DNA from: Mariprofundus sp. KV
GTDB lineage: Bacteria > Pseudomonadota > Zetaproteobacteria > Mariprofundales > Mariprofundaceae
Length of the DNA: 64,000 nt
NCBI RefSeq assembly: GCF_013387475.1
Contig: NZ_VWNB01000002.1
Coordinates: forward strand, 186,001 to 250,000
Direction of reading: 5' to 3'
Part shown: in pieces, positions 13,452-49,464 of the stretch
Numbering within the stretch: position 1 is the stretch's first letter
Layout: every line of letters begins with the position of its first letter
Notes under the pieces: model-generated
Told to the model about the DNA's origin: nothing
The model's input: only the letters and a program-made list of their open reading frames with translations
The model's database searches: none
Translations under genes and position numbers: made by a program

Positions 13452-14522
13452 TTAACTCAGATTCATCTGATAACACTTCACCAGCGCACCACGGTTCTTC
13501 ACCTTGATATCACCTCTGGGCTGCATGGCAATAAGATGATGACAACGGTTATATGTCTCTTCGCCAACAAGAATCACCTCACCCTCTGCCATCTGCTCAA
13601 GGCGGGCTGCAACATTCACGGTGTCACCGATCACCGTATAATCCATTCTGTTCTTTGAACCGACATTGCCCATCACAACATCACCCGTATTCACACCAAT
13701 ACCAACCTCAAATACCGGATAACCTTTCAATCTGAATTCGGGCATAAGTGCTTTCACACAGTGCTGCATCTCAATGGCTGCCTGCAGAGCGTTGAGAGGC
13801 CCCTCCTCCTGATCACCGACCACACCAAAGGTCGCCATCAGCTCATCACCGACAAATTTATCGAGAATGCCGTTGTGTTTGAAAATAATCTTCACCATCG
13901 CATCAAAATAGTCATTGAGCATGCCGATCACCTCGGCAGGACTCATATGCTCTGAAATCGATGTGAATGACCGAATATCGGCAAACAACACTGTTACTTC
14001 GTGCTGCATGTTCTGCAGAGGAATATCCTCTTCTGAACTGATGATCTTTTCGACAAGGCTCTTATCGACATAACGGCTCAAACGGCTGCGCGACAGACTC
14101 TCCTCCCTGAGTTTCTTCTGATAACCCTCAATTTCACGGGTATAGAGCAGTAGCTTGGTTGTCATCTCCTGAAAATTGCGCGATGAACGTTCTGATTCAG
14201 CCAATACCGTATTAAAATGCTCAATAATGCCAACCAGTTCATCGGGGGTATTCTCATGGATTTGAATCGACTGTTTTTGGTCAGACATGGCTGCCTGACC
14301 GGTAATATCGTGCACATTACGCAGTTGCCTGCCAAATTTCCGGATCACTGAAAATCCAATCAGATGCGCAATAAGCGCGGAAAGCGCTATCAGCAGCAGC
14401 GTCGGGGTGATCTCGGCATCAAGATAGATCACCAGATAAAAGGCCAACAGATAGGGAATAAAGCCAATCAGGCTGTAACTGGCCTGTTCAATATCTCTGA
14501 ATCGAACCCCTTTTTTCATCAT
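13452..14522 (-). CDS. Membrane-bound class III adenylate cyclase
   Basis: This 356-residue protein has two hydrophobic segments near the N-terminus (~18-60), a HAMP-like linker (~65-125), a short coiled coil and a C-terminal class III nucleotide cyclase domain (~180-355). All expected active-site elements are visible: the first metal Asp in LFADIRSFTS, the second in DKFVGDELMATFG, the Lys of that motif and the Asp of MDYTVIGD (the Lys/Asp pair typical of ATP use), and the transition-state Asn and Arg of NVAARLE. cAMP production is therefore likely. Its ATG overlaps the stop of the PilZ gene by one base (TGATG), so translation of the two is probably coupled. Confidence 0.88.
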   Translation of the reverse strand: MMKKGVRFRDIEQASYSLIGFIPYLLAFYLVIYLDAEITPTLLLIALSALIAHLIGFSVIRKFGRQLRNVHDITGQAAMSDQKQSIQIHENTPDELVGIIEHFNTVLAESERSSRNFQEMTTKLLLYTREIEGYQKKLREESLSRSRLSRYVDKSLVEKIISSEEDIPLQNMQHEVTVLFADIRSFTSISEHMSPAEVIGMLNDYFDAMVKIIFKHNGILDKFVGDELMATFGVVGDQEEGPLNALQAAIEMQHCVKALMPEFRLKGYPVFEVGIGVNTGDVVMGNVGSKNRMDYTVIGDTVNVAARLEQMAEGEVILVGEETYNRCHHLIAMQPRGDIKVKNRGALVKCYQMNLS

Positions 14523-43846: not shown

Positions 43847-43990
43847 AGCGGAATCATAGAAGAGTGTCAGATAAAACACCCACTTATTTCGAGCCACAAA
43901 AAAGGCAGAAGTTTACACTCCTGCCCTGTCACTCTGCTATCAGACTGCATCAACTGTGCAGCCAATTAACGATTTATGTGTTGATGGCGT

Positions 43991-44110
43991 TTAGAAGCCG
44001 CCGTTCAGCCACTCCGGCACATCATACATCACACCGTTATAGGCGCGCTGAAATACAGCATCACTTCGGTCGTCCATCTGAATCATTACTGTTTTTTTGC
44101 GAAAACTCAT
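43991..44110 (-). CDS. 39-residue small protein
   Basis: Reading from ATG 44110 to TAA 43991-43993 gives a 39-residue peptide starting MSFRKKTVMIQMDDR and ending VPEWLNGGF. GAGAGGAGATCAA directly before the ATG is an excellent ribosome-binding site. It lies 31 bp after another small gene with an equally strong site. The peptide is basic at its start and acidic afterwards, with no membrane segment or Cys motif. Family unknown. Confidence 0.6.
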   Translation of the reverse strand: MSFRKKTVMIQMDDRSDAVFQRAYNGVMYDVPEWLNGGF

Positions 44111-44141
44111 TTGATCTCCTCTCTGTTGTTCGAAATCGCGA

Positions 44142-44318
44142 TTAAACCATCACCTGATAAGATGCGTAAAAACACGCTCCGGAACTATCTTCATAACCAT
44201 GGGCATCTGCAGGTTCATCACCGAATATCTGGCAAATTGCAGTTGCAGCCACCACCTGGCTCTCATACTTAAGGCTGTTGATTGCAATGCTATCCATCAT
44301 ATTGTTAAGAAAACCCAT
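44142..44318 (-). CDS. 58-residue small protein
   Basis: A 58-residue protein beginning MGFLNNMMDSIAINSLKYES with ATG 44318 preceded by the near-perfect Shine-Dalgarno AAGGAGGT 4 bases upstream; the longer frame to 44342 is therefore rejected. It contains two Cys (AICQIF, GACFYA) and an acidic middle (GDEPADAHGYEDSS). No family recognised. It pairs with the 39-residue gene downstream in what looks like a two-gene operon. Confidence 0.65.
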   Translation of the reverse strand: MGFLNNMMDSIAINSLKYESQVVAATAICQIFGDEPADAHGYEDSSGACFYASYQVMV

Positions 44319-44478
44319 GTTGACCTCCTTGCCGGCGACCACCAGATCACCTGCTCACAGAGCGAATCATAGTGATCGAGAATGAGCCGGATGTGAGTCC
44401 AGTCACACGCAGAAGATTTAAAATCATGCACGCTAAGTGCTTGATGTTGTGAGCAAAGAAACAATAACACAAGGTGAA

Positions 44479-44585: not shown

Positions 44586-46433
44586 TCAAGAGAGTTTGTC
44601 GCGAATCGCCCTGCACAACTCATCAACAATAAGCGGCTTGTTCAGGACACTTTCCCATTCGCTAACCATTTCACAAGTCGATTGATGGTCTCTGTCGTAG
44701 CCGGTCACAAAAAGAATTTTCACGTCAGGATTAATCTTACGTATCTGCTCAGCTGCAGCAGGCCCACCCAGCACAGGCATTACCACATCCATCAATACCA
44801 GGTCGATGGTTTCACCACGGTGGCGATAAATATCCAGCGCCTGAAATCCATTTTTTGCTGTCATCACCTGGTAACCAAGCTCGACAAGCAGCTGTTCATT
44901 TGCCTCCAGCAGTGATTCATCATCATCGACCAGAAGAATCGTCTCCTGACGACCCTCTTCAATCACACTGTTTATTGGATGTGCTTCCTCCTGCTCATCC
45001 ACGATGGGGAAATAGATACTGAAGCGTGTGCCCGACTCCGGATAGCTGACCACATCAATATAGCCACCGTGAGAGTGAACAGCGCCATAGACCATAGCGA
45101 GCCCGAGTCCGGTTCCGGAACCGATCTCCTTGGTGGTATAAAAGGGTTCAAAAATGTGGCTGACTTCAGAGTCACTCATGCCACAGCCGTTATCCTGTAC
45201 CGAGAGGATGGTGTAGTTCCCGGGCAGTATCTCCTGCTGGTTTTTGGTAATCGACTGATCAACCCTGCTCGGTGTCAGAGAGACTGATATGAAAGGAGCC
45301 TCGACACCTTTAAGTGCATCACGGGCATTATTCATCAAGTTCATCAGAATCTGCTGAATCTGGGTCGCCTCCCCCCGGATCATCTGATCCTCCTGTGGAA
45401 ACTGACACTCACAGCGAATATCGGCAGGTATGGATATCTTCGCCAGCTTGTACGCCTCTTTGATATAGAGACTCAGATCAAACACCTTAAGCTGCACATC
45501 ATCTTTGCGGGCAAAGGTCATCAGCTGACGGATCATATCTGCCGCATGCATGGTCAGATCACCGATCTTATCGATTCGCTTCTTGAGGTCAGGAGCTTCT
45601 ACTTTACGTTGCAGCAGATAGAGGTTTGCCGAAATCCCGGAGAGCATATTATTAAAATCGTGGGCAATGCCTCCCACCAGTGTACCAAGTGCATCCATCT
45701 TCTGGGCATGCTGATATTTCATCTCAGCAAGTTCAAACTGCTGAATCGCCTTGATCTTCTCATCCACTTCGCGGCTCAGTTTTTCATTGATCTGCTGCAA
45801 CTGGAGCGTGCGAAGTTGTACAACATGTTCCAGGTCCGCCTTGGACTCTTTAAGATTCTGTTCACTCTCTTTCAGTCTCTTGTTAACACCATTAAGATGA
45901 AACTGACGCCTCTCCTGTTGACGCTGAAACAGGAAAGCAATGGCAGCAAAAACCAGGAACATGGTGGGTGCAAAACTGAGGGTGTCGTGATGATAGGTAA
46001 AATCGATTACCTTCAGACCATGCAACAGAAGTAGCGAAGCATAGAACAGGGTAAATGCACCACACCAGTACCACCCCAGACGAACCCCCATCAACATAAA
46101 TGCCGCAAACGGGAATATCTGGGCCCAGTAGATGCCTGTATTGCCAATGCCGCCATCAATAATCAGCAGCCCCAGAACAATAAAAAGAGTACTGAGCAGA
46201 ACTTCCCGAGGATAGGGCAACCATCGCTGTTTGAGACCCGTTAGCAGCCACGGGATCAGCACAACAGCAGAGATCATCTGTGTCAGTGAAAGAAGTTGCA
46301 GGCCATGCATGTAGTTGATATAACTGAATAAGATCTCAAGCAGCACCGAGAAGGAATAGAAGACAAGCAACAGGCCATGCTGACTCTTCTCATCTGGTGC
46401 AGCGCCTTCGTATCCGGAAAAAATATAGTTCAT
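44586..46433 (-). CDS. Membrane hybrid histidine kinase (7-TM-like sensor)
   Basis: A 615-residue hybrid kinase. The first ~170 residues contain about six hydrophobic segments (for example LLLVFYSFSVLLEILFSYI, VLIPWLL, LLSTLFIVLGLLII), a membrane sensor without a large periplasmic domain. A coiled coil (~180-240) leads to HisKA with phospho-His in [17 protein letters not shown] (~250-266), an ATPase domain (~360-475, [18 protein letters not shown]) and one receiver (~490-612, LVLMDVVMPVLGG). The core closely resembles the kinases at 18552 and 53468. GGAAGGG lies about 12 bases before the ATG. No regulator gene is adjacent. Confidence 0.92.
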   Translation of the reverse strand: MNYIFSGYEGAAPDEKSQHGLLLVFYSFSVLLEILFSYINYMHGLQLLSLTQMISAVVLIPWLLTGLKQRWLPYPREVLLSTLFIVLGLLIIDGGIGNTGIYWAQIFPFAAFMLMGVRLGWYWCGAFTLFYASLLLLHGLKVIDFTYHHDTLSFAPTMFLVFAAIAFLFQRQQERRQFHLNGVNKRLKESEQNLKESKADLEHVVQLRTLQLQQINEKLSREVDEKIKAIQQFELAEMKYQHAQKMDALGTLVGGIAHDFNNMLSGISANLYLLQRKVEAPDLKKRIDKIGDLTMHAADMIRQLMTFARKDDVQLKVFDLSLYIKEAYKLAKISIPADIRCECQFPQEDQMIRGEATQIQQILMNLMNNARDALKGVEAPFISVSLTPSRVDQSITKNQQEILPGNYTILSVQDNGCGMSDSEVSHIFEPFYTTKEIGSGTGLGLAMVYGAVHSHGGYIDVVSYPESGTRFSIYFPIVDEQEEAHPINSVIEEGRQETILLVDDDESLLEANEQLLVELGYQVMTAKNGFQALDIYRHRGETIDLVLMDVVMPVLGGPAAAEQIRKINPDVKILFVTGYDRDHQSTCEMVSEWESVLNKPLIVDELCRAIRDKLS

Positions 46434-46609: not shown

Positions 46610-47872
46610 ATGGAGATGCTGATCCAGATGGACGAAAGGAAAATCAAAACAGTTGCAGATATTTCTGCCCTGCTGGCAGGAACAGATCAAGCTGACCTGA
46701 AACTTCAGGGCAGCAAAGATGACATTTATGCTTGGGTAGAACGGACGCTGAATCGACTCCGATATGGCAGGCTGAGTAAAAAAGAAAAAGGACAGGTTCT
46801 GCGATATTTGATTCAGTTGTCAGGTTACTCCAGGCAACAGATAACACGTCTGATTACCCGCCACCGGGAAACAGGGCACATTCACCGCAGACAACGCACA
46901 ACCAATGGCTTCAAGCCGAAGTTCACACGCGAAGACATCATACTTCTGGCCGAGGTGGATCAGCTCGTCGATAGTGCTTCCGGCACAACCATCAAGGTCT
47001 ACTGCCAAAGGGCTTATGAGCTATTCGGAGATCAGCGTTTTGCCAGGCTGGCTAATATCTCCGTCTCACACCTGTATAATCTGCGAGCGAACAATATCTA
47101 TCGTCGTTGCAGGAGGGTTTATACCAAAACCAATCCTGTTCAGGTGCCTATAGGAGAGCGCCGCAAACCAAGACCAGACGGTCAACCGGGCTACCTGCGT
47201 ATTGATAGTGTGCATCAGGGCGATATGGACAAGAAGAAAGGCGTTTATCACATCAATGCCGTTGATGAGGTGACCCAGTGGGAGGTGGTTGTAACTGTGC
47301 AGCGCATCCAAGAAGAGTTCACCATCCCCGCTCTGAAATCACTACTCAAACAGATCCCGTTTGAGGTCAAAGGGTTTCATTCAGATAACGGTTCAGAATA
47401 CATCAACCGCTACGTTGCTGAGCTGCTCAATAAGCAGATGATTCGGATGACCAAATCACGCTCTCGACACTGCAACGACAATGCGTTGGCTGAAAGCAAG
47501 AACGGAGCGGTAGTGCGCAAGGCATTCGGGCGGGTACATATCCCGCAACTCCATGCTGAACTGATCGACAGCTTCAACAGGAAACACCTCAACCCCTGCC
47601 TGAATTACCATCGTCCCTGCCACTTTCCGAGTATCGAAACTGATGCCAAAGGAAAACAGAAAAAACGCTATCGCGTCGAGGATATGATGACGCCTTATGA
47701 GAAGCTCAAATCACTAAAAAATGCCGAGCAGTATCTCAAGCCGAACCTCTCATTCCAGTGGCTCGACACTATCGCAAAAAGATACTCCGACCTTGACGCA
47801 TGGAGGCAATTACGAAACGCTCGCAGAATCTTGTTCAAAACAATCTTTGGGCAGAACAACGAAGCAGCATAA
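46610..47872 (+). CDS. IS transposase with rve (DDE) domain
   Basis: A 420-residue transposase. Helix-turn-helix segments occupy ~55-165, and an integrase-core (rve) domain follows with the catalytic triad Asp199 (LRIDSVHQGD), Asp259 (GFHSDNGSEY) and Glu295 (NALAESKNGA), a DD35E arrangement. It looks intact. Two later in-frame ATGs (46616, 46628) could be the true start. This family occurs as single-gene IS copies in many proteobacteria; I cannot name the IS family with certainty (IS481-like or unclassified). Confidence 0.88.
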   Translation: MEMLIQMDERKIKTVADISALLAGTDQADLKLQGSKDDIYAWVERTLNRLRYGRLSKKEKGQVLRYLIQLSGYSRQQITRLITRHRETGHIHRRQRTTNGFKPKFTREDIILLAEVDQLVDSASGTTIKVYCQRAYELFGDQRFARLANISVSHLYNLRANNIYRRCRRVYTKTNPVQVPIGERRKPRPDGQPGYLRIDSVHQGDMDKKKGVYHINAVDEVTQWEVVVTVQRIQEEFTIPALKSLLKQIPFEVKGFHSDNGSEYINRYVAELLNKQMIRMTKSRSRHCNDNALAESKNGAVVRKAFGRVHIPQLHAELIDSFNRKHLNPCLNYHRPCHFPSIETDAKGKQKKRYRVEDMMTPYEKLKSLKNAEQYLKPNLSFQWLDTIAKRYSDLDAWRQLRNARRILFKTIFGQNNEAA

Positions 47873-47928: not shown

Positions 47929-49464
47929 TCAACGCCAGCGGTGGTACCGCCCCACCTCTCGATCCAGCTGACCGCTGCGCAGACGAGCCATATAATCTTT
48001 CAGGGCATCGCCCACCTTGTCCTGTAACAGATAGAGGGCGAGGAAGTTCGGGAATGCCATGGAGAGCAGCAGGAGATCACTGAAATCAAGGATATTGCCT
48101 GCACTCACCAGCGAGGCCAGTACAATGAACATAAGAAACATCAATCGATAGACCATCGAGAAACGCTCCCCGAAGACATAGGTCCAGCAGCGCTCACCAT
48201 AATAGGACCATGAGATCATCGTCGAGTAGGCAAACAGCACCACTGAAACAGAGAGAATTACCGGGAACCATGAGATGACCGAACCAAAGGCTACAGCAGT
48301 CAGCGCGGCGCCCTTGCTGGCCTCAACCAGTGTGGCATGTTCCGGCGCGTTATAAACACCGGTCAGGATGATCACCAGCGCTGTCATGGTACAGATCACC
48401 ACCGTATCGATGAACGGTTCATAGAGTGCTACAAAGCCCTGACGTACCGGATATTTCACCGATGCTGCAGAGTGGGCAATCGCCGCAGATCCGATTCCCG
48501 CTTCACTGGAGAATGCAGCGCGTTTAAAGCCCTGTACCAGTACACCGATCATACCTCCGGCAACCGCAGTCGGTGCAAATGCTTCGGTAAATATCAAACC
48601 GATGGCAGCCGGAACATCGGCAATGTAGGTCAGGATAATCCACAGACATGCCGTGAGATAGATAAACACCATTGTCGGCACCAGTGCCTCTGCAGCATGT
48701 GCAATGCGTTTGATACCACCGATAATCACGATACCCACAGCTGTCGCCATAAACACACCGAATACCCACGGATAATCTTTGAAGAAGGAGATCTCATTCT
48801 GAACTGCACCCAGCGCCTGAGATACCTGAAAGGCATTGCCGCCACCCAGAGAGGCACCAACACAGAGAATAGCAAACAGCACCGCCAGAGCCTTACCTGT
48901 CCCGGCCATCCCCTTCTCGGCAAAACCTCTGGAGAGATACTGCATTGCGCCACCCATCACATGGCCATCAGGGCGGAATTCACGGTAGATCTGGGCCAGT
49001 GTTACCTCTGTAAACTTGGCGGTCATGCCGAAGAATCCGGCAACTATCATCCAGAAGGTTGCACCGGGGCCACCAATACTGACTGCGATGGCCACACCTG
49101 CGATATTTCCCAGCCCCACGGTTGCTGAGAGTGCTGTGGTCAGCGCCTGGAATGGGGAGACCTCACCGATATCGTCTGTTGATCGGTATCTGCCTCTGAG
49201 CACCTGCAAGGCATGGCCCATCATACGCAGATTGATAAAACCAAAACGGATGGTGAGATAGACGGCACCGACAATCAGCCAGGCGACAATAAACGGCATC
49301 GCACCATCGCCCGGCATCACATCATAAAAGAGTACCGATGCCAGATAACCGTTCAGGGTACCAAAAAATGCATCTACACCTACCGCTTCGCTTTCGGCGA
49401 AAGCAAGCTGGGCCGGTAGCAGCAGCGAAATGAACAGTGTTATTTTAAGCATGATCTCTCGCAT
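47929..49464 (-). CDS. Sodium:alanine symporter family (AGCS) protein
   Basis: A 511-residue inner-membrane transporter of the AGCS family (AlsT/DagA), which imports alanine or glycine with Na+. The N-terminus is a signal-like helix ending in AFAES (~1-24). About ten further hydrophobic segments follow, with family stretches ATVGLGNIAGVAIAVSIGGPGATFWM (~114-139, core GLGNIAGVA) and AAFSSEAGIGSAAIAHSAA (~318-336). ATG 49464 follows GGGGAGGG. Its stop is 3 bp from the inserted IS, so its original terminator may have been displaced. Confidence 0.93.
   Translation of the reverse strand: MREIMLKITLFISLLLPAQLAFAESEAVGVDAFFGTLNGYLASVLFYDVMPGDGAMPFIVAWLIVGAVYLTIRFGFINLRMMGHALQVLRGRYRSTDDIGEVSPFQALTTALSATVGLGNIAGVAIAVSIGGPGATFWMIVAGFFGMTAKFTEVTLAQIYREFRPDGHVMGGAMQYLSRGFAEKGMAGTGKALAVLFAILCVGASLGGGNAFQVSQALGAVQNEISFFKDYPWVFGVFMATAVGIVIIGGIKRIAHAAEALVPTMVFIYLTACLWIILTYIADVPAAIGLIFTEAFAPTAVAGGMIGVLVQGFKRAAFSSEAGIGSAAIAHSAASVKYPVRQGFVALYEPFIDTVVICTMTALVIILTGVYNAPEHATLVEASKGAALTAVAFGSVISWFPVILSVSVVLFAYSTMISWSYYGERCWTYVFGERFSMVYRLMFLMFIVLASLVSAGNILDFSDLLLLSMAFPNFLALYLLQDKVGDALKDYMARLRSGQLDREVGRYHRWR

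Follow-up and report, generated by a model that had tools for sequence, protein, structure and literature searches.

Two adjacent small genes on the minus strand of the iron-oxidising marine bacterium Mariprofundus, here called A and B, are virtually certain to be genuine protein genes, and we read them as a lineage-restricted, dispensable pair. The explanation that best accounts for the whole of the data, to which we give about even confidence, is a bicistronic, CRP-activated operon whose small products bind partner proteins. The features of the pair are listed in Table 1, with positions in the window, that is, the whole 64,000-nucleotide stretch of DNA that was analysed.

Table 1. Features of the A-B gene pair in the order of transcription (positions in the window)
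Feature	Position	Strand	Basis
CRP-consensus operator TGTGA-N6-TCACA	44392..44407	-	Exact in 6/6 pair genomes
Predicted -10 hexamer TATGAT, 20 nt past the operator core	44366..44371	-	Same spacing in 6/6; predicted from sequence
Shine-Dalgarno site of A, AAGGAGGT	44323..44330	-	Sequence and anti-SD pairing energy
Gene A, 58 aa, ATG start, invariant C29 and C49	44142..44318	-	ORF reading, conservation, selection
Shine-Dalgarno site of B, GAGGAGAT	44114..44121	-	Sequence and anti-SD pairing energy
Gene B, 39 aa, ATG start, NGV.YD(I/V)P.WL motif	43991..44110	-	ORF reading, conservation, selection
Terminator-like hairpin with T-run, between B and thpR	43902..43927	-	One found in window, shuffles mean 0.8

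Using A and B as queries in a search of 100 genomes, both were found at E < 1e-5 only in G000 (the genome of the window), G001, G016, G019, G020 and G022. When profiles built from the six sequences were run against 78 genomes of the order, they picked out these six again, all of them within the genus (6 of 23), and none of the 55 genomes beyond it. Weaker matches (E 0.03 to 1) were dropped, as they were scattered, never placed A and B together and in many cases lay in long frames or contained stops. A pattern-based scan with the B alignment across a collection of genomes from 84,980 species, which is blind to distant relatives and may omit the window's own genome and its near ones, gave four loci, matching G016, G019, G020 and G022. 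In all six pair genomes, A lies upstream of B, side by side, and each gene has an ATG and a purine-rich Shine-Dalgarno site.

The comparison of the frames indicates that both genes are under purifying selection. For A, 18.0 changes per 29.2 synonymous sites stand against 1.0 per 129.8 replacement sites between G019 and G016, and 10.0 per 34.2 against 13.0 per 139.8 between G000 and G001; for B, the corresponding values are 12.0 per 23.3 against 4.0 per 90.7 and 11.0 per 20.5 against 3.0 per 90.5. Across six comparisons, one-sided Fisher p-values ranged from 0.0041 (A, G000-G001) to 8.8e-17. It is the conserved frames, together with this excess of synonymous over replacement change, that identify A and B as protein genes. 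An earlier note on this DNA had singled out two tiny genes of no recognised family with near-perfect Shine-Dalgarno sites, and this holds: the frames lie where it placed them, they are conserved in 6 of the 23 genus genomes, and in none of the six are they broken.

Separated by 31 bp, with A first, the two genes have anti-SD pairing energies of -12.1 kcal/mol (A) and -9.1 kcal/mol (B). The site of A is stronger than those of all 35 non-overlapping ORFs of at least 150 aa in the window, while that of B exceeds 31 of the 35 when the first ATG is used and 30 when the comparison uses, for every long ORF, the best start within its first 60 codons. Start choice in this comparison set was mechanical, and the values are a ranking rather than an annotation. 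Sites of this strength suggest that A and B may be highly expressed, and their transcription probably needs an activator.

The two proteins are new to the libraries searched, although ordinary as a kind of thing. No significant profile match was found for either in Pfam, NCBIfam, PHROGs or PADLOC, the best sub-threshold E-values being 0.044 for A (PADLOC) and 0.12 (NCBIfam) and 0.15 (PHROGs) for B, with no hit in Pfam. Neither protein has a relative among the PDB sequences, where two matches to A at E 1.6 were taken as chance, or among the phage records and viral contigs. Over the six sequences, 13 columns are invariant in A, including C29 and C49, and 14 in B, including NGV, YD, P and WL, but G016, G019 and G020 are nearly identical, so this invariance rests on few independent lineages. 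The AlphaFold model of A is weak (mean pLDDT 53.5, two helices). That of B has a mean pLDDT of 64.0, with strands at residues 19-24 and 27-32 and an average of 80 over residues 21-30; a beta-hairpin in B is weakly predicted. In five of the six sequences of each protein, no membrane-span-like stretch was detected, the highest 19-residue hydropathy being 0.92 in A and 0.46 in B. An amphipathic-peptide reading was set aside after a crude test on the same number of sequences, in which the best helical moments were 0.23-0.31 for A and 0.35-0.52 for B. In what one library of open-licence literature displays, nothing appeared on small proteins of Mariprofundus beyond a passage on CydX (PMC4325964).

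Upstream of A, the operator has GACTCACAT as its right half, and a TANNNT hexamer follows at exactly 20 nt in all six pair genomes. The specific pattern TGTGANNNGACTCACA-N18-22-TANNNT occurs in 7 of 65 genomes, namely the six pair genomes and G073, which belongs to the phylum but not to the order, has one such site and lacks the pair. PMC10328515 gives TGTGA-N6-TCACA as the CRP consensus and counts a distance of 41.5 bp upstream from the start among the common activating positions. The geometry of operator and hexamer appears close to that of a class II activator site, with a -41.5 position that we infer together with the start site itself; the 20-nt spacing is one short of what we expect for class II. 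Activation of the pair by a CRP-family regulator is likely.

A genus-wide regulon of CRP type with class II promoters is suggested by the wider distribution of the operator. The general pattern (operator, N19-22, TANNNT) was detected at 43 sites in the 23 genus genomes, against none in the reversed control, and six of these sites are the pair promoters themselves. Exact 16-bp operators are weakly enriched in the genome of the window (five, against two in the control), and four of the five carry a -10-like hexamer at 18-22 nt. The fifth, at C11:112580, lies within an apparent aminotransferase gene and was set aside as chance. Of 27 operator loci read by script (with no output for L136), four stand ahead of PD40 beta-propeller genes, an assignment that Pfam confirmed, and most of the remainder precede genes of various kinds or no evident gene. 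The CRP-like class II patterns before PD40 genes are those at G000:C6:57518-57561, L138, L142 and L144 (in G000, G015, G003 and G010), and G001 has a site closely matching that of the PD40-type promoters. A second type of operator, near TGTGAANTANTTCACA, was observed at G000:C25:61015-61058 and G000:C21:37131-37174, as well as in G001, G006 and G009, and may be the target of a different Crp/Fnr regulator. One site of this type, in both G000 and G001, precedes genes for a small secreted protein and an OmpA-family lipoprotein.

A candidate for the regulator is encoded at G000:C11:110121-110819. Its product exceeds the Pfam cut-offs for cNMP_binding, HTH_Crp_2 and Crp, gives full-length PDB matches to CRP/FNR-family regulators and E. 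coli-type CAP, and has the recognition helix SRETISR. We take the RE...R residues of this helix, and those of the cAMP pocket, to have their familiar roles. Homologues were found in 19 of the 23 genus genomes and in five of the six pair genomes. In G019, which has both pair and operator and is 92% complete, none was detected at E<=1e-30. The G020 copy is intact, as the stop flagged in it corresponds to the third codon of the query start, ahead of the next ATG. Given that G000 has 17 cNMP_binding matches, and that at least two others of these (L051 and L054) look by eye to have a Crp-like C-terminal region, the site may be bound by another paralogue instead. Nine PF00211 cyclase domains were detected in the same genome. 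One PF00211 adenylate/guanylate cyclase domain is encoded within the window (13464-14006, minus strand, E 1.9e-32). Among the titles and opening lines of abstracts that one library of open-licence literature provides, no account of cyclic AMP in Zetaproteobacteria was noticed.

The earlier note had also tied the pair to the thpR-recA run downstream, and on this point the data argue the other way. In favour of the pair as the front of a thpR-recA transcript, serving RNA or DNA repair, is the arrangement in the window, G001, G016, G019 and G022, where it adjoins thpR on the same strand. The terminator-like hairpin of the window is not beyond chance when taken alone (one found, against a shuffle mean of 0.8), and a stem with a T-run stands, by eye, at the same place before thpR in the other five pair genomes as well. 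In G020, an RND cluster encoding an outer-membrane efflux protein, a CusB/HlyD-type adaptor and an AcrB-family pump separates the pair from thpR. Moreover, thpR was found in 20 of the 23 genus genomes, and 14 of these 20 lack the pair. The hairpins, the promoter-like element of its own and the arrangement in G020 together argue that the pair is very likely a transcription unit separate from thpR-recA, and a role at the front of that run is very unlikely. The promoter-like and terminator-like elements of the pair would suit a small regulatory RNA with incidental frames, but this is extremely unlikely given the synonymous excess in both frames, and the window has no Rfam match.

Two further explanations, both unlikely, concern what the proteins do. 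A toxin-antitoxin or other antagonistic pair, one product harming the cell and the other neutralising it, might look like this: two linked small genes that are patchily distributed and have been lost in places. Against this, no family match was found in PADLOC, Pfam, NCBIfam or PHROGs, phage and viral relatives are lacking, and in the pair genomes read, the two genes keep to a constant chromosomal location near thpR instead of spreading on mobile elements. Autoregulation is typical of toxin-antitoxin pairs, whereas here the operator is of CRP type. The small size of the products, the two conserved cysteines of A and the moderate helical moments of B (0.35-0.52) would fit secreted peptides or precursors of modified peptides, such as a two-peptide bacteriocin or a signal. 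We judge this improbable as well: the ORF lists of the window, G019 and G020 contain no processing, transport or immunity gene beside the pair, the efflux genes of G020 being of RND type, the net charge of A and B ranges from -7 to 0, and the moments of A are small (0.23-0.31). Both explanations are ranked below the reading of A and B as partner-binding accessory proteins. Many characterised bacterial small proteins bind a larger partner, and for A and B this function is a guess by analogy, possible but less likely than not.

The history of the pair was approached through the region before thpR, which was examined in 12 of the 14 thpR genomes without the pair (G006 and G007 were left out). One of the 12, G014, carries, by eye, a relic of the locus, with an operator half-site changed to TCAGA, the hexamer TAATAT, the leader and the terminator, and with both A and B absent. 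A thpR tree built from 19 genomes places G014 and the pair-bearing G022 as sisters (support 97/96), and the presence of the pair on this tree requires at least three changes. The pair appears to have been lost in G014, and this apparent loss implies that it is dispensable there. An old presence with repeated loss would fit the pattern, a matter that a single small-gene tree cannot settle. A further ORF in the window (46610-47872, plus strand) resembles an rve transposase, with an E-value of 2.3e-7, just under the curated cut-off, and is flanked by genes for a hybrid sensor kinase (44586-46433) and a sodium:alanine symporter (47929-49464).

Under the bicistronic, CRP-activated explanation, A and B, two small proteins restricted to the lineage, would be made from a single operon. 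The activator would be of the CRP family, most likely the homologue at G000:C11:110121-110819, and would bind TGTGA-N6-TCACA near -41.5 and recruit RNA polymerase to the TATGAT promoter in the class II manner. Translation would then be high, from a leader of some 40 nt and very strong Shine-Dalgarno sites, the hairpin would end the transcript ahead of thpR, and each small product would bind a larger partner protein in the energy or carbon state reported by cyclic AMP. Within this scheme, the data establish the coding status and linkage of the genes, the conserved geometry of operator and -10 hexamer, and a CRP homologue and cyclase domains in the genome; we infer that this CRP is the binder, that it uses cAMP, that it activates and does not repress, that expression is high and that the products bind partners. 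A bolder version, in which A and B are an obligate two-part microprotein switch, produced in response to a cAMP-CRP signal, that binds and retunes a central enzyme or a respiratory complex of Mariprofundus, seems quite unlikely.

Compared with known class II CRP promoters, such as that of murQP in Vibrio cholerae (PMC10328515), the promoter of the pair has the same TGTGA-N6-TCACA near a putative -41.5 and a -10 element at nearly the right distance, but here it is defined by its sequence pattern, and the binder could be another Crp/Fnr paralogue. These findings provide two small-protein families with firm coding evidence, together with a concrete type of regulator, in iron oxidisers. Many characterised small proteins have a membrane-span-like stretch, which A and B lack. 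A and B resemble lineage-specific bacterial small proteins in being shorter than 60 aa, in their strong Shine-Dalgarno sites, in the purifying selection that they are under and in their restriction to few species; they differ from that class in being two linked proteins behind one CRP-type promoter.
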